DNA of 20,123 nucleotides from a virus: positions 8,440-28,562 of IMG/VR virus record IMGVR_UViG_3300030104_004174. One strand, written 5' to 3'. The position numbers were made by a program, and so were the translations under genes. The notes below the pieces were generated by a model that did not search any database, had not been told where the DNA came from, and was given only the letters and a program-made list of their open reading frames with translations. Within the stretch, counting starts at the first letter, position 1, and each line of letters opens with the position of its first letter. This document shows positions 7,222 to 20,123 of this stretch, piece by piece.

Positions 7222-8055
7222 ATGTCAAGCAAAGTAAATTACGGAAGATACAGAGTAAACACAGACGGACTTGTGTTTAGAGTAGACGGTTATAGCCAAA
7301 GAAGTTACAGTCACAACACAGAAAATTGGAAAGATTTATCTCCGAGTGGCCTCGATGTTAAATTAACCGATTCAGGTCTTTATGACGACACAAGTGGATA
7401 CTACAAGTTTAGAAACCCTAATAACGCAACAAATAAGTATGCTGCAGTATCTGGAGCTAATTTTTCAGGACTAAGATCTTTAGGCGTCTTAAAAGATGAC
7501 GACTCTAGTTTTACAATTGAAGCCTTCTTTGAAATAAAGGTTTCTGGAGAGAATTCTCCTCCTGATGACGGGGCTGTGATATTTGGTAATACAGATGCTA
7601 ACAAAAGCGGTTTCTCTTATGGCTTGATAGCTAAAACTGGTAACGGAGGCGAGATTAGCGGTATCAATGCTTTTATTGCGTCAAACAAAGTAGACCAAAG
7701 TTTAAATCATCCTTGGACAGGTGTCGAGGTTGTTCTTTCGGATGTTAATGATCCTTCTATCTCTGGTTCTGATTTTAGACATGCCGCCATGACGTATGAT
7801 AGTTCAAATGGTAGAATGATTGGTTATTTAGATGGAGTTGCTAAAGGGACAGGTACTTTTCCTTCTACAAATACTTCAGGATTTCATGACGGAACAGTCA
7901 ATGGAGTTTATCAACAATTTTATATAGGTGGGAATTTAGACTCAGGTTTAAATACAAATATAGGTATGGTCGGTTGCTACAACAGAGCTTTGTCTAGTGG
8001 AGAAGTTATAGGCAACTGCAAAGCTGTCAAACATAGATATGGGCAAGGGTATTAA
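7222..8055 (+). CDS. LamG/concanavalin A-like lectin virion protein, 277 aa
   Basis: A single LamG-like jelly-roll spans most of the protein. The start DGLVFRVDGYSQRSY...WKDLSPSG, the central SSFTIEAFFEIKV, the segment FRHAAMTYDSSNGRMIGYLDG, and the ending IGMVGCYNRALSSGEVIGNC are typical of the family. Such domains bind carbohydrates or act as structural modules on fibres and capsids. Its N-terminus resembles that of the 644-aa protein just upstream, which suggests the two are diverged relatives. A strong AGGAGGA ribosome site at 7207-7213 lies inside the end of the upstream gene, and only 2 bases separate the genes, so they are one operon. Only two cysteines are present, both near the C-terminus. 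Confidence 0.8.
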   Translation: MSSKVNYGRYRVNTDGLVFRVDGYSQRSYSHNTENWKDLSPSGLDVKLTDSGLYDDTSGYYKFRNPNNATNKYAAVSGANFSGLRSLGVLKDDDSSFTIEAFFEIKVSGENSPPDDGAVIFGNTDANKSGFSYGLIAKTGNGGEISGINAFIASNKVDQSLNHPWTGVEVVLSDVNDPSISGSDFRHAAMTYDSSNGRMIGYLDGVAKGTGTFPSTNTSGFHDGTVNGVYQQFYIGGNLDSGLNTNIGMVGCYNRALSSGEVIGNCKAVKHRYGQGY

Positions 8056-8073
8056 GTGTAATTTATAAAGTAT

Positions 8074-11000
8074 ATGGCTGTTAAAAGGTATGTTGGCGAT
8101 AAAATCGTCGGTTTAAATAGTGAGAAAGCCGCTGTTCTAGACACGGTTTCTGATGGTGCTTTGTATTATACTAATGACTCGCCTTACGTTGTTTACTTAA
8201 AAAAAGACGGAGCTTGGCAACAAATATCAAGTAGTGCAGGAGGAGGCTCAGAGCTTACAAATAGTGGGCAAATCTTGCATCGTGACATTCATGTTGTAAG
8301 CGGAGACGTTGCTCTTAATACTGCTGACATTGATATTGTCAGTGGTGATCTTCTGAATACAGGTCAAATTTTACATCGTGACATTCATGTTGTAAGCGGA
8401 GACGTTGCTCTTAATACTGCTGACATTGATATTGTCAGTGGTAGAATAGATAGCAACGATACAGATATAACTAGCCTAACCACTAACCTTGACACTACAG
8501 GAAATCTTTTGCATCGTGATGTTCATGTTGTAAGCGGAAGAATAGCTACTGACAGCACTCTAGGTAATGTAAAATTTGCATGCAACTGTAGTCAAAGTAC
8601 AGCACCTAATATCTTTACAGATACCACGGACAGAAGTTACGCTGTAACACCAAATTCGACAAACCAAATGGTGGTTAATGTTCCTTGGATAGATTCAACA
8701 GCCAACCTTAACACTACAGGAAATCTTTTACATCGTGATGTTCATGTTGTAAGTGGTAGAATAGATAGCAACGATACAGATATAACTAACCTAACCACTA
8801 ACCTTGACACTACAGGAAATCTTTTGCATCGTGATGTTCATGTCGTTAGTGGGGTAGCGCACGGAAAAGCTTCTGACGTTTTTAAAACTATTTCTGTGCA
8901 AAACGAAGACGATGTAATAGCGGCAGGAGCTACTGACACTCTAACTTTTGTGGCCGGTAGTAATACAACTATAAGCACTGACTGTAGTAATCAAACAATC
9001 ACAATTAATTCGGCTGGAGCTGCGGGTGGTGAAGCTAATGTTCAATCCGATTGGACGCAGAGCTCAAATACTTCAGACGCTTTTATATTAAATAAGCCCG
9101 GCATATTAGGGGTCTCATCTAACTACGCAGCAGGAAGCCTTCTTCCAGCTGGCGCTTCAGTTCATGGTGGTAATTTTTTAAGAAAAGATGGGTCTTGGGC
9201 AATCCCTTTTACTTTAAGCGCAGCTACTAATTCTGCTCTTGGTGGGATTAAGCTGGTAAGCTGCACAGAGCAAACAGTTGCCTCAGAAAGCGTTTCGAGT
9301 ACAGCTAATAGATCTTACGCTGTTCAGCTTGACTCTTCTAATCAAGCTGTTGTTAACGTTCCTTGGTCAGATACAAATACTTGGCAACAGGTATCGGCAA
9401 GCCATCCGGGATACGTAGCACAATTACCTGCTAGTCATGGAGGTAAGTTTTTAAAGGCAGATGGTAGTTGGGAAGTGCCAGCTTATGATACAACAAATAC
9501 TACCTACACTGTTTCTATACCAAACTCTACGACCAAGTTGAGGTTAGCTGGCAGTGACTCTACTACAGATGATATTGAGTTTGTAGGAGCTGGTCTTATT
9601 TCAGTTGCCCGGACTAATGACTCTAAGTTCACTATATCGACTACGGCAACGAATAACGCAGGTACAGTTACATCTGTTACTGGAGGTACAGGTTTGTCTG
9701 GTACTGTTACTGGTACCGGTTCTTTAAGTTTAGATACAGCAACGTCTACTGCTCTTGGCGGAATAAAGGTTGGCAGCCGTCTAACTATAACCAACGGAGT
9801 ACTCTCTGCTGATTTACAAACTGACAACAATACAACTTACGGCGTGTCTGCAGTCGACGATTCGGGTATAAAACTTAGACTAACAGATTCAGGCAGCACG
9901 ACAGATGATGTTAAGTTTGCGGCAGGTAATTTACTTGGTGTTGCTAAGGTTAGCAGTGAGGACACTATTTGTTTTACTACTACGGCTACAGCTAACGATA
10001 CAGACGCTAACTTAAAGAACAGAGCAAACCATACTGGTAGCCAAGCCGCGTCTACGATTTCTGACTTTGATGCCGAAGTAGCTAATAACACTACCGTTGC
10101 AGCTCACACAACAAAACTAGCGGGGATTGAGGACGGGGCTACAGCAGATCAAACCGCTTCGGAGATATGTTCCGCTGCAGGTATAACTTCGGCTTTAGGT
10201 ACGAACGCTTTTAACAGTACGGCTTTTACTACTTGCGAAGGTACAGTCGAAAGTGTTTCTGCAGGAACAGGGTTGACAGCTGGAGGTACCGCTGTAGATC
10301 CTTCTCTTTCTCTTAACAAAGCAACGTCTACTGCTCTTGGGGGAATAAAAGTTAGTACCGGTCTGACTATAAATGCAAGTACTGGGGCGCTTTCCGTTAC
10401 TGTTCCGACTGCCAATAATTTCACTAATGATAATAAAACTAAATTAGACAATATTGAGGTTGGGGCAACAGCAGATCTAACCGCTACAGAGATATGCGCT
10501 TTAGCAGGAATAACAGGTAATATACAGTCCAATGCCTATACCAGTACCACAATTCCAACTGATAACAATCAATTAGCGAACGGATGCGGTTATACTACTA
10601 ATATAGGTACAGTTACACCTAGCAGTTCGGATACTTTCACCAATAAAAGTGGTAATATAAGTCAGTGGACTAACGACGCTAATTATAGTACTACTGTAGG
10701 TACAGTCACGGCTGTTACAGCTGCTAGCCCATTGACGGCTACTACGGGAGCTACCCCACAAATAAGTTTACCCGTTAGCGCTTGTGTTACTATAAATAAT
10801 TTAAATACGTGTGGTGCTGATAATTGTCTTAAAACTACCATATTGTGTAGTGCTTTTGTTTGTAATTCAATACTTATTAATTCTGGTCTTTTTCATGGTG
10901 GAGCTTATACCTTCACTGGTAATATAAATACTAGTGGAACTTTAAACCATGGAACAAATCACTGGATTAAAACTAACATGTTATGCACATGTGGTACAAA

Positions 11001-14000
11001 CGCTTGTATTGTATCAGATGGCGGAAGTGGATTAATAAAGGGTTGTTTTTCTGGAGACGGTTCTGCTATTACTAATTTAGATATTGGAGCATCTGATTTA
11101 CCTAATATTGCTAAATGCGAAGGAACAGTCACTTCTGTAGGGGTGGGAGCAGGTTTATGTTTGCATTCTACTGCTAATTCTTTTACAGTATCTGATACTA
11201 TATGCAATACTGATAAAGGCTCAAGTCAAAATATATTTAAAAATATAGGAGCATATAATGGAGCAACACTAATAGGAACTGTTACTGCTGCTGCTAATAA
11301 TGATACTGTATGTTTTGTTCAAGGTTCTAATATAACACTCACTCATGCTACAGATAAGATAACAATAGCCGCAGATAATACTACTTATAATCAAGCTACT
11401 GACTCAGCTCTTGGACTAGTAAAACTTTCAGGAACCCCCGCTGATAATGTAACAGACACAGCAATAACTTCCAACTATATTTTTGACAATCTTAAAACAG
11501 CGGTTCCAGCAAATGCTGTATTTACTGACACATGTTACAGTCAAGCTAATAGCTCAACGTTGGGTCTGGTTAAGATTTCAGATTCAGCTAGTAATAATGC
11601 TAGCGATACAGCGATATCAGCTGATTGGGCTTATGAAACACTTACTATTCCAAGCTTAAATATTTTAGGTAATAATACTGGAAGTGCTGCAGAAGCTTCT
11701 GGCTTAACATGCGCTCAAGTCTTGAACTTACTAGGAGTCGCAGCTGGAGCTACAGCATGCGAAGGTACAGTTACCTCTGTTTCCGGAGGTACAGGTTTAT
11801 CTGGTACTGTTACTGGTACCGGTTCTTTGGCTTTGAATCAAGCAACAACTGGCGCTCTTGGTGGAATAATAGTCGGGACCGGTCTAAGCGTAAATAGCGG
11901 TACTGTATCTGTTGCTGTTCCAACCGCTAACGATTTTACTACTACCCTTAAGAATAAATTGGATGGTATATGTGCTGGAGCTACAGTTGGTTTTACCACA
12001 AATGGTGCTGCGGGTTATGTTTGTCCTGCAAGCACTTGCACTAACTTTTGCGCTTCGGATATTAAGGCAAATAAATACTTAGGGTGTGGAAATAACAATT
12101 GCGTTGATGTTACCACAGTAAAAGCTTCTACTCTAGTAGATGTCTCTTCAGGTACCTTGAGCGCTTCTTGTATTGACGTAGGTACCCAAACTGCAACGGG
12201 AGCGATAACAGGTTTAAAATTATGCGGAGCAGGTACTGGTAATTGCGTAGAAGCTTTTTGTGGTAAATTCACATTTCTTAGTACTGTTTTTTCAATGACT
12301 GCTCTTCAGTTATGCGCTACCGGTCCTAATAATTGCGTAGAAGCTTCTTGTCTCAAAGGAGACTATGATGCGGCTGATTTAACAGGAACTATTGATGCCG
12401 CTCGCTTGCCAGATACAGCCAAGTGTCAAGGGGATATTACTGAGGTGACTGCGGGTACTGGCCTAACGGGAGGAGGCTCTACAGGAAACATTAGCGTTTG
12501 TCTTGATTTAGGTGACATAAATGACTCCACAACAAATAGCGATGGAGCTTGTTTTGCTGTTGTGAATTCGTCTAACGTACAAAAGCTTCTTGCAAAAGGT
12601 TCTATTAACATTTCTGGATTTAATAATGATTCTAATTTTACTAGCAACACAGGTACACTTACTAGCTCTTCTAACTTAAACGCTAGTAGATTAGCTTCTG
12701 GAACTGTTGATGCTGCTCGGTTGCCAATCGCCTCTACTAGTTGTCTTGGCGGTGTGAAATTCGGATGCGAATGCACCCAAACTACGGCAGCTAACGTCTT
12801 TACTGAGTGCGCGAATAGAAGTTACGCAGTAACACCAAATTCAACAAACCAGATGCTGGTTAATGTTCCTTGGACAGACACTAACACTTTTAGAAATGTA
12901 ACTGCGGGTGGGAATACTCTTGGCTCTAATGAGTCTTTAGATTTTATTGCGGGAACAAGAATAAATATTACGGAAAGTGGTGGAAACGTTACTATATCAA
13001 CTACAGCAACAAATAACTTAGGCACAGTGACTTCTGTTACAGCAGGAAACGGTCTTTCAGGAGGAACAATTACGGGCTCAGGGACCATATCTTTACCTGC
13101 TACTGGTCCGGGGGCGGCTACGTATGGTTCTACTGCCACTAATTGTAAAATTAATACAATCACTTTAGATGCATACGGTAGGGTTACAGCTTTGACATGC
13201 GGTACTGTATCTGGCGGAACTGGTGGCGGTTGCGGTTGTGTATTGGATAAAGAAGCAAATTCTACCGGTCATGATATGGCTGTATACCGGCCAGAAACTA
13301 CCGATGCTGCTGACTCCATAGGGTGTGTATCAAAAGTAAGATGGAACTCTTCAACGGAAACTTTGACTATAGGGTCAACAACCTCCAATACAGTTGGTGA
13401 ACTTTATGTTTGCGGGAGAGGCTCAGCTTCTAATTGTTGGCAGGTTGGTAGCGTAAAAATGTCCAGCGGTGCACTTTCGCATACTTCTAGCCATTTTTGT
13501 TTAACTAGCGACTCTAATCAGGGTTTTCTAAATTTGTATAACGCTACTTGTTCTGGGCATCCTAGTATTTCACAAGGGGGTATATTGTACACAACAGGGC
13601 AGTACGAAAAACCACATTGGAGAAATTCTTCTGGATGTTACGAAATATACATGACGTCAGTATCTGATTATAGATTTAAACAAAATTTACGTTGCTGGTC
13701 ATCTATATGCTGCACTACAGACGTAGTCAAGAATGTTCCTGTTTATAGTTTTAACTGGAATTCAGAAGGTTTAAAAGCTAATATTTTTGATTCTTCAAGT
13801 ACTGAAAGAATAGGCTTTTTAGCTCACGAAGTAAAAGAAAAAGTTACAGCAAATAATCTAGTTACTGCGGATAAAGACGGAACTCAAGCGGATGGTAAGA
13901 TTATACCCCAAACAATAAATCATATAGAGATGATTCCAATACTTTGGTCAGCTCTACAAGAAACTATTAAAAAAGTAGAAGATTTAGAAGAAAGAGTAAA

Positions 14001-14019
14001 AACTCTTGAATCCAGTTAA
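8074..14019 (+). CDS. Giant cysteine-rich tail-fibre-like protein with C-terminal Peptidase_S74 chaperone domain, 1981 aa
   Basis: The N-terminus (KRYVGDKIVGLNSEKAAV, DGALYYTNDSPYVVYLKKDGAW) resembles attachment domains of marine phage fibres. Residues 68-260 hold five LHRD(I/V)HVVSG units. Then follow fibre modules known from T4-like marine phages: VQSDWTQSSNTSDAFILNKP, three 40-residue copies ending VNVPW, and several GTVTSVxxGTGLSG/ALGGIKV units. The C-terminal ~118 residues match Peptidase_S74 (intramolecular chaperone): S1864-D-Y-R-F-K1869 fits the Ser-Lys dyad spacing, followed by GFLAHEV and a terminal coiled coil (KKVEDLEERVKTLE). In that family the domain guides trimer folding and then cuts itself off. 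By hand count there are about 58 cysteines, which is very unusual for a fibre. No Shine-Dalgarno is seen before 8074. It is probably a trimeric host-binding fibre. Confidence 0.88.
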   Translation: MAVKRYVGDKIVGLNSEKAAVLDTVSDGALYYTNDSPYVVYLKKDGAWQQISSSAGGGSELTNSGQILHRDIHVVSGDVALNTADIDIVSGDLLNTGQILHRDIHVVSGDVALNTADIDIVSGRIDSNDTDITSLTTNLDTTGNLLHRDVHVVSGRIATDSTLGNVKFACNCSQSTAPNIFTDTTDRSYAVTPNSTNQMVVNVPWIDSTANLNTTGNLLHRDVHVVSGRIDSNDTDITNLTTNLDTTGNLLHRDVHVVSGVAHGKASDVFKTISVQNEDDVIAAGATDTLTFVAGSNTTISTDCSNQTITINSAGAAGGEANVQSDWTQSSNTSDAFILNKPGILGVSSNYAAGSLLPAGASVHGGNFLRKDGSWAIPFTLSAATNSALGGIKLVSCTEQTVASESVSSTANRSYAVQLDSSNQAVVNVPWSDTNTWQQVSASHPGYVAQLPASHGGKFLKADGSWEVPAYDTTNTTYTVSIPNSTTKLRLAGSDSTTDDIEFVGAGLISVARTNDSKFTISTTATNNAGTVTSVTGGTGLSGTVTGTGSLSLDTATSTALGGIKVGSRLTITNGVLSADLQTDNNTTYGVSAVDDSGIKLRLTDSGSTTDDVKFAAGNLLGVAKVSSEDTICFTTTATANDTDANLKNRANHTGSQAASTISDFDAEVANNTTVAAHTTKLAGIEDGATADQTASEICSAAGITSALGTNAFNSTAFTTCEGTVESVSAGTGLTAGGTAVDPSLSLNKATSTALGGIKVSTGLTINASTGALSVTVPTANNFTNDNKTKLDNIEVGATADLTATEICALAGITGNIQSNAYTSTTIPTDNNQLANGCGYTTNIGTVTPSSSDTFTNKSGNISQWTNDANYSTTVGTVTAVTAASPLTATTGATPQISLPVSACVTINNLNTCGADNCLKTTILCSAFVCNSILINSGLFHGGAYTFTGNINTSGTLNHGTNHWIKTNMLCTCGTNACIVSDGGSGLIKGCFSGDGSAITNLDIGASDLPNIAKCEGTVTSVGVGAGLCLHSTANSFTVSDTICNTDKGSSQNIFKNIGAYNGATLIGTVTAAANNDTVCFVQGSNITLTHATDKITIAADNTTYNQATDSALGLVKLSGTPADNVTDTAITSNYIFDNLKTAVPANAVFTDTCYSQANSSTLGLVKISDSASNNASDTAISADWAYETLTIPSLNILGNNTGSAAEASGLTCAQVLNLLGVAAGATACEGTVTSVSGGTGLSGTVTGTGSLALNQATTGALGGIIVGTGLSVNSGTVSVAVPTANDFTTTLKNKLDGICAGATVGFTTNGAAGYVCPASTCTNFCASDIKANKYLGCGNNNCVDVTTVKASTLVDVSSGTLSASCIDVGTQTATGAITGLKLCGAGTGNCVEAFCGKFTFLSTVFSMTALQLCATGPNNCVEASCLKGDYDAADLTGTIDAARLPDTAKCQGDITEVTAGTGLTGGGSTGNISVCLDLGDINDSTTNSDGACFAVVNSSNVQKLLAKGSINISGFNNDSNFTSNTGTLTSSSNLNASRLASGTVDAARLPIASTSCLGGVKFGCECTQTTAANVFTECANRSYAVTPNSTNQMLVNVPWTDTNTFRNVTAGGNTLGSNESLDFIAGTRINITESGGNVTISTTATNNLGTVTSVTAGNGLSGGTITGSGTISLPATGPGAATYGSTATNCKINTITLDAYGRVTALTCGTVSGGTGGGCGCVLDKEANSTGHDMAVYRPETTDAADSIGCVSKVRWNSSTETLTIGSTTSNTVGELYVCGRGSASNCWQVGSVKMSSGALSHTSSHFCLTSDSNQGFLNLYNATCSGHPSISQGGILYTTGQYEKPHWRNSSGCYEIYMTSVSDYRFKQNLRCWSSICCTTDVVKNVPVYSFNWNSEGLKANIFDSSSTERIGFLAHEVKEKVTANNLVTADKDGTQADGKIIPQTINHIEMIPILWSALQETIKKVEDLEERVKTLESS
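8278..8442 (+). repeat. In-frame 96-bp tandem duplication in the S74 fibre gene
   Basis: The stretch from CATCGTGACATTC at 8278 to CAGTGGT at 8346 recurs at 8374-8442, with an offset of 96 bases (32 codons). No mismatch is seen over the 69 bases compared. The intervening bases are also related at protein level (TGQILHRD in both). Near-identity implies recent duplication or conversion. Confidence 0.9.
8443..8528 (+). repeat. Near-identical 86-bp direct repeat, copy 1 (copy 2 at 8758-8843)
   Basis: Starts at AGAATAGATAGCAACGAT and encodes RIDSNDTDIT plus the following LHRDVHV unit. The second copy lies 315 bases (105 codons) downstream with a single difference (CTAGCC against CTAACC). Between the copies sits a 40-codon VNVPW module, so the pair flanks an inserted or exchangeable block. 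Confidence 0.9.
8569..8688 (+). repeat. 40-codon VNVPW module, copy 1 of 3 in the S74 fibre
   Basis: Encodes a block from VKFACNCSQ to NVPW. Other copies lie at 9247-9366 (IKLVSCTEQ...) and 12754-12873 (VKFGCECTQ...), each exactly 40 codons. Copies 1 and 3 differ much in the first half but are nearly identical over the second half. This block is a common fibre module in T4-like marine phages. Confidence 0.85.
8758..8843 (+). repeat. Near-identical 86-bp direct repeat, copy 2
   Basis: Matches 8443-8528 with one difference. After this copy the DNA diverges at once (GTCGTTAGTGG against GTTGTAAGCGG) although the protein stays the same, which marks a recombination edge. Confidence 0.88.
9247..9366 (+). 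repeat. 40-codon VNVPW module, copy 2 of 3 in the S74 fibre
   Basis: Same length as the copies at 8569 and 12754, with the shared elements NRSYAV and VVNVPW. It carries one cysteine (VSCTEQ) where the other copies carry two or three. Confidence 0.85.
9661..9771 (+). repeat. Dispersed ~111-bp fibre repeat, copy 1 (copy 2 at 11764-11874)
   Basis: Encodes GTVTSVTGGTGLSGTVTGTGSLSL followed by ALGGI. The second copy, 2103 bases (701 codons) downstream, shares long identical runs, including the stretch around CTGGTACTGTTACTGGTACCGG. A more diverged relative starts near 10239. These units were probably spread by recombination inside the gene. Confidence 0.85.
11764..11874 (+). repeat. Dispersed ~111-bp fibre repeat, copy 2
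   Basis: Matches 9661-9771 closely through the GTGLSGTVTGTGSL part and diverges after it, before meeting again at the ALGGI codons. Confidence 0.85.
12754..12873 (+). repeat. 40-codon VNVPW module, copy 3 of 3 in the S74 fibre
   Basis: Encodes VKFGCECTQTT...NRSYAV...LVNVPW. Its second half is almost the same DNA as copy 1, 4185 bases upstream, while the first half differs at many bases; this patchy pattern suggests gene conversion. Confidence 0.85.
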
Positions 14020-14063
14020 TTAATTAACCCTTTTGGCCTTTATTTTAGTGTAATACTCTCGAG

Positions 14064-14432
14064 ATGTCTAGTAGTTATAATTTTTCAGTCACGCAGGGTT
14101 CAGAGGTTAATGTTAGACTTACCATTACTAATGATGGCTCTGCTGTAAATTTGAGCGGTTATAACGTAAGAGGTAAGGTAAAAGGAAAATACGGAAACAC
14201 TGGAGCTTTAATAGATTTAGACCCAACTATAGTAACAGGTACCAACGGTACTTTGTATCCAAGTGGTTATGTAGATATTTACCTAAGCGGATCCCAAACT
14301 GCAGGTTTGCCTGTAATGGAGGCTGTTTATGACCTAGAAAGGTTTACGACAGGGACTCTAGGGGAAGAGACATCTGTAATAAAGATGCTGGCTGGTAAAT
14401 TTACCATTAATCCCGAGGTAACAAATATTTAA
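14064..14432 (+). CDS. Small virion protein with BppU-N-like pattern, 122 aa
   Basis: The layout is NFSVTQGSEVNVRLTITNDGSAVNLSGYNV near the start, a loop with Gly/Thr/Asn, GYVDIYLSGSQTAGLP, then EAVYDLERF and a closing VIKMLAGKFTINPEVTNI. This all-beta pattern resembles small virion proteins of T4-like cyanophages and the N-terminal domain of siphophage baseplate proteins such as BppU, which sit at fibre attachment points. It lies 44 bases after the S74 fibre and 17 bases before the next giant fibre, so it may link a fibre to the virion. No convincing Shine-Dalgarno precedes the ATG. No cysteines are present. Function is inferred from pattern and position. Confidence 0.7.
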   Translation: MSSSYNFSVTQGSEVNVRLTITNDGSAVNLSGYNVRGKVKGKYGNTGALIDLDPTIVTGTNGTLYPSGYVDIYLSGSQTAGLPVMEAVYDLERFTTGTLGEETSVIKMLAGKFTINPEVTNI

Positions 14433-14449
14433 TACTATAGATTAGGTTT

Positions 14450-17400
14450 ATGGCTCATCAAGATAAAGTCACTGTAGAACTGAATACGCCTAAAGTTACA
14501 ACTAAGGTTGTAAACGTAAGCGATACTACTGTTCCTGCTTCAACTGTTAACTTCGTAGGTCCTCAAGGCCCTGCAGGTCCCGCAGGTCCTGCTTTGATAT
14601 TCTCAGGTCAAGCTGATAACAGAGTGCTGACTTCTCATGCTTCTGGCACTAATTCTGTCACTGCCGAGGCTGGCTTTTTAGTAGATGATTCTGGTCACGT
14701 ATTTATACAAAACGACCTAACTGTATCTGGAGATTTAAATGTTAGCGGAGACTTTACTTTAGGCGATTCCACTACAGATAGTATTACCACAAAAGGTGAT
14801 CTTTTCGTAGAAGATGATGCTTTTTTCGCGGATGCAGTACATATAACCGGTAATTTAACTGTTGATGGAACAGCTTCCGCGGCTAATCCTACTCAAAATG
14901 GGCATTTAACTACAAAATCTTATGTAGATTCAGCAGACTCTTCTGTTAACTCAAATCTAGCAACTTCTGGAACAAATCTACAAACAGAAATTAGAAATAC
15001 AGGAGAATTATTAAAGGCTGATATAACTAGTATAAGTGGGAATGTAGTACACACAACAGGAGTACAAACTAATATACTAGGAAATAAAACTTTTTCTAAT
15101 GATGTTAATGTTTTAGGTAATTTATCTGTTAGTGGCAATTTTACTCTTGGTGATGAAACTACTGACAAGATAACAACAAGAGGCGATTTATATGTAGATG
15201 ATGATGCCTTTTTTGGTGATGATGTTACAGTAACAGGAAATTTAAATACTAGAAATATTTATCCAAGTACTAGCGGAACTCATGATATAGGTAGCGCTTC
15301 TTTAAAATATAATAATATTTATGCCAAAACTGGGCACTTTGATGGAAACACTATAAATCTTGGTCTTGATGGAGCAAGAATAACCACATCTAATGATGGA
15401 GTAATAAATCTTGTCTCTGAAGATGGAACCGTATCAGAAGGATTAAAAGAAAACCCAAGTATAAAAGGTAACTTGTTTGTAGAAAGTGGTGTTAATGTTA
15501 CTGGAGATGTTGTAGTTAGAGGAGACTTGAGTGTTACAGGGAGCTTTGCTGTAGATGCTGCCCCGACTCAAAATCAGCACGTAACCAATAAGCTTTATGT
15601 AGATTCTGCTAATTCTACTATAAACACTAATATTGCTTCTACGGGTTCTATTCTGCATAGAGATATTCATGTTTTAAGTGGGGACATTGCTCTTAATACA
15701 GCAGACATAGACAGCTTAAGCGGAACAATACTTAGTAATTATAATAATATATCCCAAAACGCAGCAAACTTAAATACTACCGGTTCTTTCCTACATAGAG
15801 ACATACATGCAATTAGCGGTAATCTAAACTCAGATGTATCATCTATAAGCGGAAGAGTAGCAGCTAATGAAACTGATGTAGATTCTCTAAGTGGTTCTTT
15901 AAACACAACTAATAGCAATTTACAAACAACAGGGCAAAATTTACAGAGCCAGATAACCAGCAATGACGGAGACATCTCTACCCTTACTTCCAATTTAGCT
16001 TCTTCTGGCTCGAATTTAGAAACTCAGATAAGAAACAGCGGAGCAAGCCTACAAACAGACATTAGAGACTTTAGCGGAGACGCTGTATTTACAACCGGAA
16101 TCCAAACCGTACAAGGAGCAAAAACTTTCTCAGATGATCTAACTGTACTAGGCAACTTGGGTGTTAGCGGTAAATTTATATTAGGAGATGAGACTACAGA
16201 CAGCATAACAGCAAGAGGAGATTTATTTGTAGATGACGACGCTTCTTTCGGAGATGACGTAACGGTAAGTGGAGATTTATTTGTAGAAGGAGGGTTGTAT
16301 CCCGGTAACCCTAGTCAAGGTTCTCATGCAGCTACTAAATCTTATACTGATGCAGCCGACAACAGTTTATCTACTAGGCTGGGAACCTCTGGAACTAATA
16401 TATTAAGTGAGGTATCTGATTTAAGTGGAAGCCTTAGCACTACTGGTCAAAGTTTACGTTCTGATGTGGTCGGATTAAGCGGTCAAGTTGTATTTAATAC
16501 GGGAGACCAGAATATATCAGGAGTAAAGAGCTTTGCTAGTAACGTCACTGTAGGGGGAGACTTAACAGTACAGGGAACTACATTTACTGTCGATACTTCT
16601 AATGTTTTAATAGAAGATCCAATTTTATATTTAGGTAAAAACCAAACTGGTACTCCTACTGTTGATGCCGGTTTTGTTGCAGAAAGAGGCAGTAGCACAA
16701 ATGTAGGTTTCATATGGGACGAGTCAGAGGATCATTTCGCTACAATAAACACAACAGAAATAGCAGATGATAACAACATAACTATCGCTAGTTACGCTGA
16801 TTTTAAAGCCAATGATATAGCAGCTACTAATGTAAATACAACAAATTTAACTTCTACTAATGGAGCTTTAACTTGGAGCAGAAATTCTTCTAATACTGCT
16901 GCAACAATTACTCAAGCTGGCTCGGGGGATATTTTAAATCTAATAGATGGAAGCACAGAAGTATTAACTGTTCTTGACGGAGGCAGCGTAGGTATTGGAG
17001 TTGCTTCTCCGGGAGCTAAACTTGAAGTTGGTGGGGATATAAGATTTGGATCTACAGGAGCTTTAGAGTGGGCTGGAAATTCAAGTTCAATAAATGGTGA
17101 TTCTTCTAGCCAGCATTTAGCATTTAAAACAAACAATTTAGAAAGATTAAGAATTATAGCTGATGGTAATGTTGGTTTAGGGACAGACTCACCTTCTGCA
17201 AATTTACATATTTCAAAAGATGCTCCAGAATTAAGACTTCAAGGAACAGGATCTTCTGGAACAAAAACTAATAAAATTACTTTCTATAATGCTGGAGGAG
17301 GCTTAAGAACTGAAATTAAGCAAGATTATTATGGTGGGTCAACTGATTTAAAAATATCAAATTATGATGGAGATATTTTATTGGACCCTTCTACTTCGAA

Positions 17401-20123
17401 AGTCGGTTTGGGCACCACTAACCCCGCAGCTAATTTTCATGTTTCAGCGGCAGCTTCTCCTATATTAAGGGTTCAGGATTCAACAAGTAACGCAATCATA
17501 GATCTTCAAGCTCAAGATTCTCTTGTTTTATTAGGTTCTTCTTCTGATCATCCTTTAGTTATAAGAACAGACTCCACTGAGAGAGTTAGAATAACTAACA
17601 CAGGTAACATCGGTATAGGTACAACAGCGCCTTCTGTTAAGCTTCATATAGTATCTACTGATGCAATAAAAGTACCAGTCGGAACTACCGCACAAAGGCC
17701 AACTGCTGCGGACGGAATGATTCGCTTCAACTCTACTACAAGTAAGTATGAAGGCTACCGTGACAGCTCTTGGAAAGAACTTGGTGGGGGAATAATTGAT
17801 CTTGACGAAGACACTTACATTTCAACCGAAAAGACTTCTGATGATGATACATTATTTTTCTATACTTCTGGAATAGAAAGAGCCAAGATAAACAAAGATG
17901 GATCTACTCATATTAAAGGAGACTTGTTTGTTTCTGGTGCAGCTTCGGGTATCGACCCAACACAAAATGGACATTTTACCACAAAATCTTACGTTGACTC
18001 TGCTGATTCTGAATTAGCTGCGGATATAGATATAGTAAGCGGTTTAGTTATTAGTAACGATTCAGATCTTTCTACTGTAACATCAAATCTTGCGACTACA
18101 GGATCTAACCTACATCGTGATATTCATGCGGTTAGCGGAGATGTTGTCCTTAACGCTGCTGACGTAGATTCTTTAAGCGGCAGCTTAAATACTACGAATA
18201 CTAATCTTGCGACTACAGGATCTAATCTGCATCGTGATATTCATGCGGTTAGTGGAGATGTCGCATTAAATACAGCAGACATAGATAGCTTGAGCGGAAC
18301 GATGCTCAGTAATTACAGCAACATATCTCAAAATAGCGCTAACTTGGCAACCACAGGCTCTAATCTACATAGAGACATTCATGCAGTTAGTGGTGATGTT
18401 GTCCTTAACTCTGCTGACATAGATTCCTTGAGTGGTAGCTTAAATACCACAAATACTAATCTTGCAACTACGGGCTCTAATTTACATCGAGATGTTCACG
18501 CTGTTAGCGGTAGTTTAAATACTACGAATTCTAATATTGTTACTACTGGAGCTAATCTACAGTCTCAGATTAGTTCTAATGATTCAGAAATACTCAGCTT
18601 ACAGTCAGACGTAAATAATCTTAGCGGAGACGCTGTTTTACTAGCAGGAAATCAAACTATAGCAGGAGTCAAGACTTTTTCCAATAACGCTATCTTTAAT
18701 GGGAACTTAACTGTCAACGGTACAACAATGACAGTCGATACTTCAAACGTACTTGTTGAAGATCCTGTTTTATTGTTAGCTAAAAACCAAGCTGGCTCTG
18801 CTTCTCTTGATGCTGGGTTTATTGCTGAAAGAGGAGACGATACAAACGTAGGATTTATATGGGACGAAAGCGATGACCACTTTGCGGTAGTCAATACTAC
18901 AGAAGCCGCGGCTGACGCAGATATAACTATAGCAAGTTACGCAAACTTTAAAGCTAACTTAGGGGTCTTTTCTTCTAATGTTACTTCTTTGGGTAGTGTT
19001 GGGGTAGGCACAGCTTCACCTACTGCTAAACTAGAAGTTACCACGGGCAACATACGACTTAGCAACGATTATTATGTAGAGTGGGGAGGTACAAACGCGA
19101 GGATAGGTGGCAGCAATGCGGGTGACTACGTGTTTTTCTCCACGGGAAATACAGACCGTATGCGGATTGTTTCCAGCGGCAGCGTTGGGATAGGAACAAA
19201 TTCACCTTCTAATACATTAGATATTAATGGCGGACTTGAGGTAAACGGCGAATCATATATCAGGAGCACAAGTAATGTAGGTTTAAGAATACAAACAACC
19301 GACCAAGGCATAACTAACAGCGATGGACTAAGATTAGGATTGAATGGTAGTCATGCTTTCCTTTGGGTTTACGAGAACAAGCCTCTCGCTTTAGCTACTA
19401 ATGGCACCGAACGAGCAACTATATTAGGCAACGGTAACTTTGGTATAGGAACAACTAGTCCCGATTCAAATTTAGACATTGAAGGCACAGGTAGTCCAGA
19501 GCTTAGAGTTACAGATACTACAAATACAGTTGGAGCTTACATACAAAGCAACAACACTAAAACAATTTTTGGTTCAAGAACAAATCACCCTGTTCAAATA
19601 GAGCAAAATGCAGGAGCGGCTTTATATATAGATACTTCTAAAAATGTTGGTATCGGCACGACAAGTCCAGAATCTTACACTAATTATAAAGCTGTTACTA
19701 TCTCTGACTCAACAGGAGGACAAATTTACTTTAAATCAACGACTAGTTCTGTAACCGCTTATGCAGGTGCGGACAGTAACGGAGCTTATTTTGCCGCCAA
19801 GACTAACCACCCATTAAGATTAAGAACTAATAACACTGATAAGTTGTTCATAGCAACGGATGGCAACGTTGGTATAGGGACTACAACCCCGGGATCTAAG
19901 CTGCATGTTGTTGGTGAAATATTTGCTGCTACAGGTTCAACAAGTGTCCGCACTTTAAGTGGTATACTCAAAGCTGATACTATAGAGAACAGCGCTGGGG
20001 CTTCTAATTTAAAGCTACAGACTGAAGCTGGCGGGAATAAACATATCGAGATAACACCTAATGGTACAGGTAATGTTGGTATAGGAACAAATGCACCAGC
20101 TACAACACTTGAGGCAAGTGGTA
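14450..20123 (+). CDS. Giant modular tail-fibre-like protein, partial at 3' end (at least 1891 aa)
   Basis: The frame opened by ATG at 14450 (weak TTAGG upstream) runs without a stop to the window edge. Residues 1-36 are a probable attachment segment, and 37-48 are a short collagen-like GPQGPAGPAGPA. Three LGDxTTDxIT(T/A)xGDL(F/Y)V units start at residues 104, 233 and 578. TKSYVDSAD-type units begin at 146, 371, 620 and 1169. LHRDIHxxSG coil units lie at ~400-460 and ~1215-1365. Paired TVDTSNVL(I/V)EDP...WDES(E/D)DHF modules start at 713 and 1428. Ten (V/I/F)G(I/L/V)GTxxP units occur between 846 and 1890, and a QRPTAADGMIRFNSTTSKYEGY segment near 1080. Such arrays are known from marine phage fibres. 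I see no cysteine in the translated part. An S74 or receptor-binding tip may lie beyond the window. Confidence 0.88.
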   Translation, partial: MAHQDKVTVELNTPKVTTKVVNVSDTTVPASTVNFVGPQGPAGPAGPALIFSGQADNRVLTSHASGTNSVTAEAGFLVDDSGHVFIQNDLTVSGDLNVSGDFTLGDSTTDSITTKGDLFVEDDAFFADAVHITGNLTVDGTASAANPTQNGHLTTKSYVDSADSSVNSNLATSGTNLQTEIRNTGELLKADITSISGNVVHTTGVQTNILGNKTFSNDVNVLGNLSVSGNFTLGDETTDKITTRGDLYVDDDAFFGDDVTVTGNLNTRNIYPSTSGTHDIGSASLKYNNIYAKTGHFDGNTINLGLDGARITTSNDGVINLVSEDGTVSEGLKENPSIKGNLFVESGVNVTGDVVVRGDLSVTGSFAVDAAPTQNQHVTNKLYVDSANSTINTNIASTGSILHRDIHVLSGDIALNTADIDSLSGTILSNYNNISQNAANLNTTGSFLHRDIHAISGNLNSDVSSISGRVAANETDVDSLSGSLNTTNSNLQTTGQNLQSQITSNDGDISTLTSNLASSGSNLETQIRNSGASLQTDIRDFSGDAVFTTGIQTVQGAKTFSDDLTVLGNLGVSGKFILGDETTDSITARGDLFVDDDASFGDDVTVSGDLFVEGGLYPGNPSQGSHAATKSYTDAADNSLSTRLGTSGTNILSEVSDLSGSLSTTGQSLRSDVVGLSGQVVFNTGDQNISGVKSFASNVTVGGDLTVQGTTFTVDTSNVLIEDPILYLGKNQTGTPTVDAGFVAERGSSTNVGFIWDESEDHFATINTTEIADDNNITIASYADFKANDIAATNVNTTNLTSTNGALTWSRNSSNTAATITQAGSGDILNLIDGSTEVLTVLDGGSVGIGVASPGAKLEVGGDIRFGSTGALEWAGNSSSINGDSSSQHLAFKTNNLERLRIIADGNVGLGTDSPSANLHISKDAPELRLQGTGSSGTKTNKITFYNAGGGLRTEIKQDYYGGSTDLKISNYDGDILLDPSTSKVGLGTTNPAANFHVSAAASPILRVQDSTSNAIIDLQAQDSLVLLGSSSDHPLVIRTDSTERVRITNTGNIGIGTTAPSVKLHIVSTDAIKVPVGTTAQRPTAADGMIRFNSTTSKYEGYRDSSWKELGGGIIDLDEDTYISTEKTSDDDTLFFYTSGIERAKINKDGSTHIKGDLFVSGAASGIDPTQNGHFTTKSYVDSADSELAADIDIVSGLVISNDSDLSTVTSNLATTGSNLHRDIHAVSGDVVLNAADVDSLSGSLNTTNTNLATTGSNLHRDIHAVSGDVALNTADIDSLSGTMLSNYSNISQNSANLATTGSNLHRDIHAVSGDVVLNSADIDSLSGSLNTTNTNLATTGSNLHRDVHAVSGSLNTTNSNIVTTGANLQSQISSNDSEILSLQSDVNNLSGDAVLLAGNQTIAGVKTFSNNAIFNGNLTVNGTTMTVDTSNVLVEDPVLLLAKNQAGSASLDAGFIAERGDDTNVGFIWDESDDHFAVVNTTEAAADADITIASYANFKANLGVFSSNVTSLGSVGVGTASPTAKLEVTTGNIRLSNDYYVEWGGTNARIGGSNAGDYVFFSTGNTDRMRIVSSGSVGIGTNSPSNTLDINGGLEVNGESYIRSTSNVGLRIQTTDQGITNSDGLRLGLNGSHAFLWVYENKPLALATNGTERATILGNGNFGIGTTSPDSNLDIEGTGSPELRVTDTTNTVGAYIQSNNTKTIFGSRTNHPVQIEQNAGAALYIDTSKNVGIGTTSPESYTNYKAVTISDSTGGQIYFKSTTSSVTAYAGADSNGAYFAAKTNHPLRLRTNNTDKLFIATDGNVGIGTTTPGSKLHVVGEIFAATGSTSVRTLSGILKADTIENSAGASNLKLQTEAGGNKHIEITPNGTGNVGIGTNAPATTLEASG
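14558..14593 (+). repeat. Short collagen-like (Gly-Pro-X)4 segment
   Basis: Encodes GPQGPAGPAGPA, residues 37-48 of the giant fibre. Four Gly-X-Y triplets are too few for a stable triple helix alone, but they suit a trimeric joint between the attachment part and the shaft. Such segments are common in phage fibres. Confidence 0.85.
16586..16765 (+). repeat. TVDTSNV module, copy 1 (copy 2 begins at 18731)
   Basis: Encodes TVDTSNVLIEDP, then DAGFVAERG and GFIWDESEDHF. The copy at 18731-18904 keeps these protein motifs while many third codon positions differ, so the two copies are old or were acquired separately. Confidence 0.8.
16985..17653 (+). repeat. First array of GIGTxxP fibre repeats (4 units)
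   Basis: Units start at 16985 (SVGIGVASPGAKLEV), 17171 (VGLGTDSPSANLHI), 17402 (VGLGTTNPAANFHV) and 17609 (IGIGTTAPSVKLHI), 62 to 77 codons apart, with variable sequence in between. They follow the first TVDTSNV module. Confidence 0.85.
18086..18532 (+). repeat. Array of LATTGSNLHRD(I/V)HAVSG units in the giant fibre
   Basis: Four units begin at 18086, 18203, 18341 and 18458, giving spacings of 117, 138 and 117 bases (39, 46 and 39 codons). Units 1 and 3 end in SGSLNTTNT and unit 2 in SGTMLSNYSNISQNSA; unit 4 is shorter. Related units occur at about 15640-15835 of the same gene and at 8275-8850 in the S74 fibre. Confidence 0.88.
18998..20116 (+). repeat. Second array of GIGTxxP fibre repeats (6 units, may continue)
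   Basis: Units start at 18998, 19184, 19439, 19646, 19868 and 20075 (for example VGIGTNSPSNTLDI, FGIGTTSPDSNLDI, VGIGTTTPGSKLHV), 62 to 85 codons apart. They follow the second TVDTSNV module, so the order of the first array is repeated. The last unit reaches almost to the window edge. Confidence 0.85.

Follow-up and report, generated by a model that had tools for sequence, protein, structure and literature searches.

The window analysed here is a stretch of 20,123 nucleotides (G000:8440-28562). It belongs to a virus record of 28,562 bases (IMGVR_UViG_3300030104_004174) which carries terminase, portal, tubulin-like, prohead, capsid and fibre genes but does not include the tail and baseplate genes of the phage. 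The features of its S74 fibre gene and of the next giant fibre are listed in Table 1. By its C-terminal domain the product of the former is classed as an S74 fibre: a scan of the last 125 aa (residues 1857–1981) gave PF13884 at 23.8 bits against a gathering score of 22, and a scan of the whole protein gave 17.4 bits, below the cut-off. The spacing of S1864 and K1869 and their position at the domain start match the Ser/Lys autocleavage dyad described for S74 domains (PMC3742443), and the motif SDYRxKxNL is present in all four members of the Cys-rich family described below. If the domain is cut off at S1864, 55 of the 58 Cys would remain in the virion. A segment of the CWSxxCC type (CW or SW, then CC) was found in the S74 domain of all four members and is lacking in ordinary S74 domains.

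Table 1. Features of the S74 fibre gene and of the giant fibre gene downstream (positions are those of the window).
Feature	Window position	Strand	Fibre residues	Remarks
Giant S74 fibre gene	8074..14019	+		1981 aa, 58 Cys; from ORF, Cys count and PF13884 at C-terminus
Proximal part	8074..10770	+	1-899	LHRD[VI]HVVSG shaft repeats; marine fibre modules of ordinary type; 9 Cys (1.0%)
Cys-rich distal part	10771..13662	+	900-1863	46 Cys (4.8%), no CxxC
S74 (endosialidase-type) intramolecular chaperone domain	13663..14016	+	1864-1981	Begins S1864-D-Y-R-F-K1869; 3 Cys (CWSSICC)
VNVPW module copy a	8557..8688	+		Cys 170, 172 at usual Ser/Asp and Thr sites
VNVPW module copy b	9235..9366	+		One Cys (397), between usual Ser/Asp and Thr sites
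VNVPW module copy c	12742..12873	+		Four Cys: 1557, 1565, 1567, 1579
Cys 699 (ATADQTASEIC)	10168..10170	+	699	Lys/Arg in ordinary GATADQT..EI[KR] units
Cys 808 (ATADLTATEIC)	10495..10497	+	808	Second copy of Lys/Arg to Cys replacement
Cys 1300 (KLDGICAGAT)	11971..11973	+	1300	Glu in ordinary units
Module-junction Cys (TTCEGTVESV)	10234..10236	+	721	
Module-junction Cys (AKCEGTVTSV)	11116..11118	+	1015	
Module-junction Cys (TACEGTVTSV)	11758..11760	+	1229	
Module-junction Cys (AKCQGDITEV)	12424..12426	+	1451	
CxxxxxNCVxAxC unit 1	12223-12261	+	1384-1396	CGAGTGNCVEAFC (C-x6-C-x4-C)
CxxxxxNCVxAxC unit 2	12313-12351	+	1414-1426	CATGPNNCVEASC (C-x6-C-x4-C)
FACNC			168-172	
ILCSAFVC			923-930	
CTCGTNAC			971-978	
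FGCEC			1563-1567	
GGGCGCV			1717-1723	
Next giant fibre	14450..20122	+		0 Cys over 1891 aa; ORF continues past the window end; internal negative control

The S74 end matched 25 phage records, and a profile hit (E 9.5e-5) was obtained to the distal subunit of the Salmonella phage S16 long tail fibre (6f45). With this fibre, the endosialidase tailspikes and the cyanophage S74 fibres the window fibre shares the C-terminal S74 domain, the Ser...Lys spacing and the long modular build. The repeat TGxxLHRD[VI]H[VA][VI]SG is common to its proximal shaft (window ~8260-8860) and to the next giant fibre (14450-20122), and LHRD-type repeats give regularly spaced His in what appears to be a trimeric coiled shaft.

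The gene occupies a variable slot (window 8056-14063) between the genes at 7222-8055 and 14064-14432, which holds the Cys-rich S74 fibre here and in contig L001. In near relatives whose contigs reach it the slot contains glycosyltransferase-type or other enzyme genes; where the capsid protein is 82–95% identical these are glycosyltransferases with an FkbM methyltransferase or a carbamoyltransferase, a swap of fibre for surface-sugar enzymes. In about 12 close relatives (MCP-linked loci) the slot holds large Cys-rich ORFs, which were considered as candidate fibres and rejected, as they contained GT9/GT1/GT2, carbamoyltransferase and FkbM methyltransferase domains; the Cys-rich fibre is thus not clade-wide. 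The available contigs of 17 nearer relatives (capsid protein 82–95% identical) showed no S74 end. Upstream of the window, between the portal and prohead genes, lies a gene for a tubulin/FtsZ-family GTPase (L003:6684-7835, 383 aa, PF00091 with E 1e-11, PF13809), and near relatives whose contigs cover this region have an ORF of similar size after the portal gene.

Cysteine content and distribution

A script count gave exactly 58 Cys in 1981 aa (2.93%), encoded by 32 TGT and 26 TGC codons, in agreement with the figure of about 58 obtained by hand in the original prediction. The claims that the giant fibre downstream is Cys-free and that the other structural proteins have zero to two Cys were borne out as well: the former has none as far as its ORF, open at the window end, can be read, and the candidate structural genes in the window gave counts of 0, 0, 1, 0, 0, 1, 2 and 0. 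The excess in the S74 fibre is real and beyond chance, the probability of at least 58 Cys in 1981 residues being 7e-45 at the pooled rate of 76 module-sharing fibre ORFs (0.21%) and 7e-11 at a generic 1.1% Cys, values meaningful only as orders of magnitude since residues are taken as independent. Reassignment of TGY codons was dropped as an explanation, because Cys use is normal in enzymes encoded on the contig (12 in the terminase) while other virion proteins do without it.

The trait is not general to S74 fibres. Eighteen S74 or module-bearing fibres, eleven of them in deposited phage records and the remaining seven in other S74 contigs, contained 0–1% Cys (pooled 0.39%), whereas the window fibre has 2.9% overall, 4.8% in its distal half and the additional CWSxxCC segment. 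All the Cys motifs quoted in the original prediction are present (Table 1), and only the placing of GGGCGCV just before the end had to be corrected, the motif lying about 260 residues from the C-terminus. Alignment showed the C-x6-C-x4-C spacing of the two CxxxxxNCVxAxC units again once in L084 and twice in L001.

No CxxC was found in the whole 1981 aa, and hence no CxxC-type zinc, Fe-S or thioredoxin-like site; the four family members have 0, 0, 1 and 2 CxxC, with about 8 expected in sum. The window fibre contains four CxC. About a third of its Cys (21/58) have no second Cys within 15 residues. A spacing of 5 between Cys was enriched (8 vs. 2.4, z 3.7; weak in the relatives), in part because units are duplicated. 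The 964 residues of the Cys-rich half include few His (10), none of them in an HxH.

Among 153 non-redundant Cys of the family, hydrophobic residues occurred at ±1 with a frequency of 0.379, as compared with 0.231 for nearby small or polar residues, and at ±2 with 0.167, as compared with 0.265, an alternation reached in none of 2000 permutations. The pattern suggests that the Cys lie on the outward face of strands whose other face is buried, and not at the trimer axis. Together with the absence of CxxC and the isolation of 21 of the 58 Cys, it speaks against the predicted binding of metal ions along the axis. AlphaFold monomer models reached pLDDT 44.8 for the S74 end and 33.0 for the distal block and were used neither for geometry nor for fold search.

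Family members and ordinary relatives

The Cys-rich trait was found in three further IMG/VR contigs, L001, L084 and L085. The four members are uncultured contigs, none known to be complete. L001 is syntenic with the window (major capsid protein 97% identical), and its fibre has 52 Cys in 1957 aa. The fibres of L084 (44 Cys in 2443 aa) and L085 (25 Cys in 2112 aa), located through their S74 end, have long collagen-like shafts with PF01391 hits that are almost free of Cys; 40 of the 44 and 21 of the 25 Cys, respectively, are located beyond residue 1700, most of them ahead of the S74 domain. The Cys-rich tip therefore sits on two types of shaft across the four contigs. The L084 and L085 genes (L084:1038-8366 and L085:2043-8378), whose very long shafts are of the GSSGTSG type, are placed upstream of the portal gene, a genome position other than that of the window fibre.

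Residues 1213–1610 of the window fibre and the L084 tip share 17 of 21 Cys and are 83.6% identical across the 336 residues aligned. The distal sequence of L085 used as query retrieved only L085 itself, and a degenerate DNA pattern of the S74-domain segment W..xCC..T[ND]V returned L084 and L085 again and one chance match (L100). The family is probably larger than four, since searches with peptide patterns miss diverged members. In cellular genomes no Cys-rich S74 relative was found, and a single ordinary module was seen in a Prevotella MAG.

Two further ORFs were noted. The unrelated L075:12098-21136 (3013 aa, its frame still open where the locus stops) combines GYQG collagen-like repeats with 69 Cys (2.3%); the capsid protein of the phage that carries it is 57% identical. 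L093:3-560 is a short S74 ORF in which poly-Pro and a Lys/Ser/Gly stretch are followed by an ordinary S74 domain; six Cys (CGGCGNSSRGGC, CCQQC) precede this domain.

Ordinary marine fibres contain the same modules (GTVTSV, GIEAGATADQT..EIK, ...YAVQLNSSDQMVVNVPWTD), recognisable residue by residue, but with Thr, Ser, Lys or Glu where the Cys-rich family has Cys. A search with one fibre module gave 80 loci, in 77 of which the ORF could be assigned; the median Cys content of these ORFs was 0.13% (90th percentile 0.70%), and without the family member the remaining 76 ORFs contained 135 Cys in 63,131 residues (0.21%). None of 96 distinct ordinary copies of the VNVPW module has Cys. The sites of window Cys 1567 and 1579, which are Cys in L084 too, carry Thr in 92 and 94 copies, respectively, and the site of Cys 1565 carries Ser in 64 and Asp in 24. 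In 22 distinct ordinary units, cyanophage and roseophage fibres included, the site of Cys 1300 is always Glu, and that of Cys 699/808 is Lys or Arg in all but one. The residue before xGTVTSV is Cys at none of 19 ordinary junctions, as compared with 4 of 8 in the window, 5 of 8 in L001 and 3 of 3 in L084. The Ser and Thr given for these sites in the original prediction were thus confirmed, and the replaced residues extended to Lys, Glu and Asp. Wherever ordinary copies could be aligned (T/S/D, K and E sites), Cys is the derived state.

Turnover of the cysteines

In the central block, in which window and L001 are 75% identical, 8 Cys are shared, 6 are found only in the window and 9 only in L001. 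In VNVPW copy b, for example, L001 has Asp at the site of window Cys 397 and carries a Cys at another site of the module. Cys number is thus retained while the sites shift. The expectation that Cys would be conserved in homologues held for the block shared with L084 and failed for the central block of L001, where only 8 of 23 positions are kept, so that a fixed lattice of pairs is unsupported.

Every such Cys difference in this block involves two or three base changes, mostly imposed by the residues replaced (T, N, D, A, K, V, I, L, G). An exotic mutational origin (a diversity-generating retroelement or codon-wise replacement) was considered and rejected, because control genes of the same pair behaved similarly (multi-base codons 0.36–0.67) and the replaced amino acids themselves require at least two base changes. 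Of nine window-only Cys, seven have a partner-only Cys at a distance of at most 8 columns (P 0.0014 under a uniform and 0.011 under a local null), for instance at 1154/1149, 991/989 and 913/911 (window/L001); Lys behaved similarly in this test (P 0.06). In this small sample the clustering of lineage-specific Cys near each other is suggestive. For the same pair, dN/dS was 0.4–0.8 in the shared Cys-rich central and distal blocks as compared with 0.01–0.27 in other genes and fibre blocks, a rise that may be due in part to recombination, the blocks concerned having low dS.

Possible function of the Cys-rich tip

Phage fibres normally avoid Cys, being folded in a reducing cytoplasm and working outside it. 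The explanation that we tentatively favour is that the distal half forms an S74-matured receptor-binding tip rich in surface thiols, which disulfides would most likely lock once the virion is released. The long fibre, like other S74 fibres, would trimerise, and its C-terminal chaperone would be cut off at S1864. The distal half presumably touches the host and would consist of ordinary beta-structured modules, as in many marine phage fibres, with Cys placed at outward strand positions, module junctions and turns. Folding and trimerisation would proceed in the host cytoplasm with the thiols reduced, and partial oxidation after lysis would produce intra- and inter-chain disulfides, the exposed tip becoming a covalently stitched trimer. 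Since Cys is nearly absent from the proximal shaft and from the remaining virion proteins sequenced, cross-linking would be limited to the fibre and would not involve baseplate or capsid, and Cys density could be kept while positions move because many pairs would be redundant. A disulfide-stitched tip would account for the confinement of Cys to the exposed half, their outward positions, their redundancy and turnover, and the lack of partner Cys in the rest of the sequenced virion proteins. It explains the isolated Cys poorly, and isolated thiols or threefold sites fit these at least as well; moreover, the 55 Cys of the mature chain, an odd number, could not all be paired.

By chemistry, the nearest analogues are the Agrobacterium phages Milano, with 2.1% Cys in its structural proteins (PMC10811340), and 7-7-1, with 2.58% Cys in four capsid proteins (PMC12796354), both of which have virion disulfides. 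The likeness lies in virion proteins unusually rich in Cys. In those phages Cys richness and mutual cross-linking extend to nearly all parts of the tail or capsid, and the sheath Cys are conserved across the clade, whereas the window phage has one Cys-rich fibre, the other virion proteins sequenced (head-side and fibre genes) having 0–2 Cys; among these genes on the contig, Cys richness across sheath, baseplate and capsid was not seen. The low conservation of Cys between window and L001, unlike that of the Milano sheath, weakens the disulfide reading.

The main rival holds that the distal thiols bind soft or borderline metals (Cu, Zn, Cd, Hg or possibly Fe) at Cys sites of surface or threefold type, which would serve as structural cross-links or allow metal-uptake receptors to be exploited. 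It would be the thiolate counterpart of the iron-loaded fibres with HxH-coordinated iron, such as T4 gp37 and gp12 of alterophage R22Y (PMC11705849), a likeness in idea only (ligand residues along a trimeric fibre), since these use His while the window fibre has Cys, outward to judge from the sequence pattern. In a trimer, each isolated Cys would contribute a layer of three thiols, and the repeated C-x6-C-x4-C units and the four CxC are plausible ligand sets; however, the want of CxxC in the window fibre and its rarity in the family, the apparently outward and not axial position of the Cys, the few His and the turnover of Cys positions make metal binding unlikely, if not greatly so. The original interpretation, regular Cys pairs in a trimeric shaft that bind metal along the axis or form disulfides once the virion has left the cell, thus stands in part: the fibre-specific excess, the three further contigs and the replacement of Ser and Thr agree with it, and axial metal is not supported.

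That the Cys have no special function, being tolerated passengers of a Cys-rich module pool which arose once in the phage family and was spread by recombination, appears quite unlikely. Only four contigs are concerned, all with related S74 ends, the low dS (0.25) of the block shared by window and L084 points to spread by recombination, and single Cys positions are not strongly kept. Passengers would be expected to erode, yet window and L001 have 58 and 52 Cys, many of them lineage-specific and each two or three base changes away; Cys is derived at several sites that are T/S/D, K or E in ordinary copies, and the distal sequence of L085 is unrelated yet Cys-rich. Direct action of free thiols, by thiol-disulfide exchange with host surface proteins at adsorption or through covalent decoration such as S-glycosylation, would suit the outward positions, the isolated Cys, the local turnover at constant density and the glycosyltransferases found in the same slot of close relatives. 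We regard it as distinctly improbable, given that in those relatives the enzymes stand in place of the fibre and not beside it, that a dedicated S-modifying enzyme was not identified, and that no acceptor can be assigned to the glycosyltransferase-like genes upstream in L084 and L085.

The window fibre is a Cys-rich variant of the known S74 kind, known from four uncultured contigs, and no description of a Cys-rich fibre of this type was found in the open-access literature searched. In a wider reading, which we consider possible while inclining to doubt, these fibres would represent a marine class in which directional gain of surface Cys in ordinary modules has led to a redox-armoured or metal-loaded tip, matured after cell exit, with selection acting on thiol density and not on fixed pairs. 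If this is true, the fibre would be a natural model of post-release oxidative hardening, or of thiolate metal binding, at a host-recognition tip, and would indicate that selection can act on the density of a chemical property while single residues turn over.
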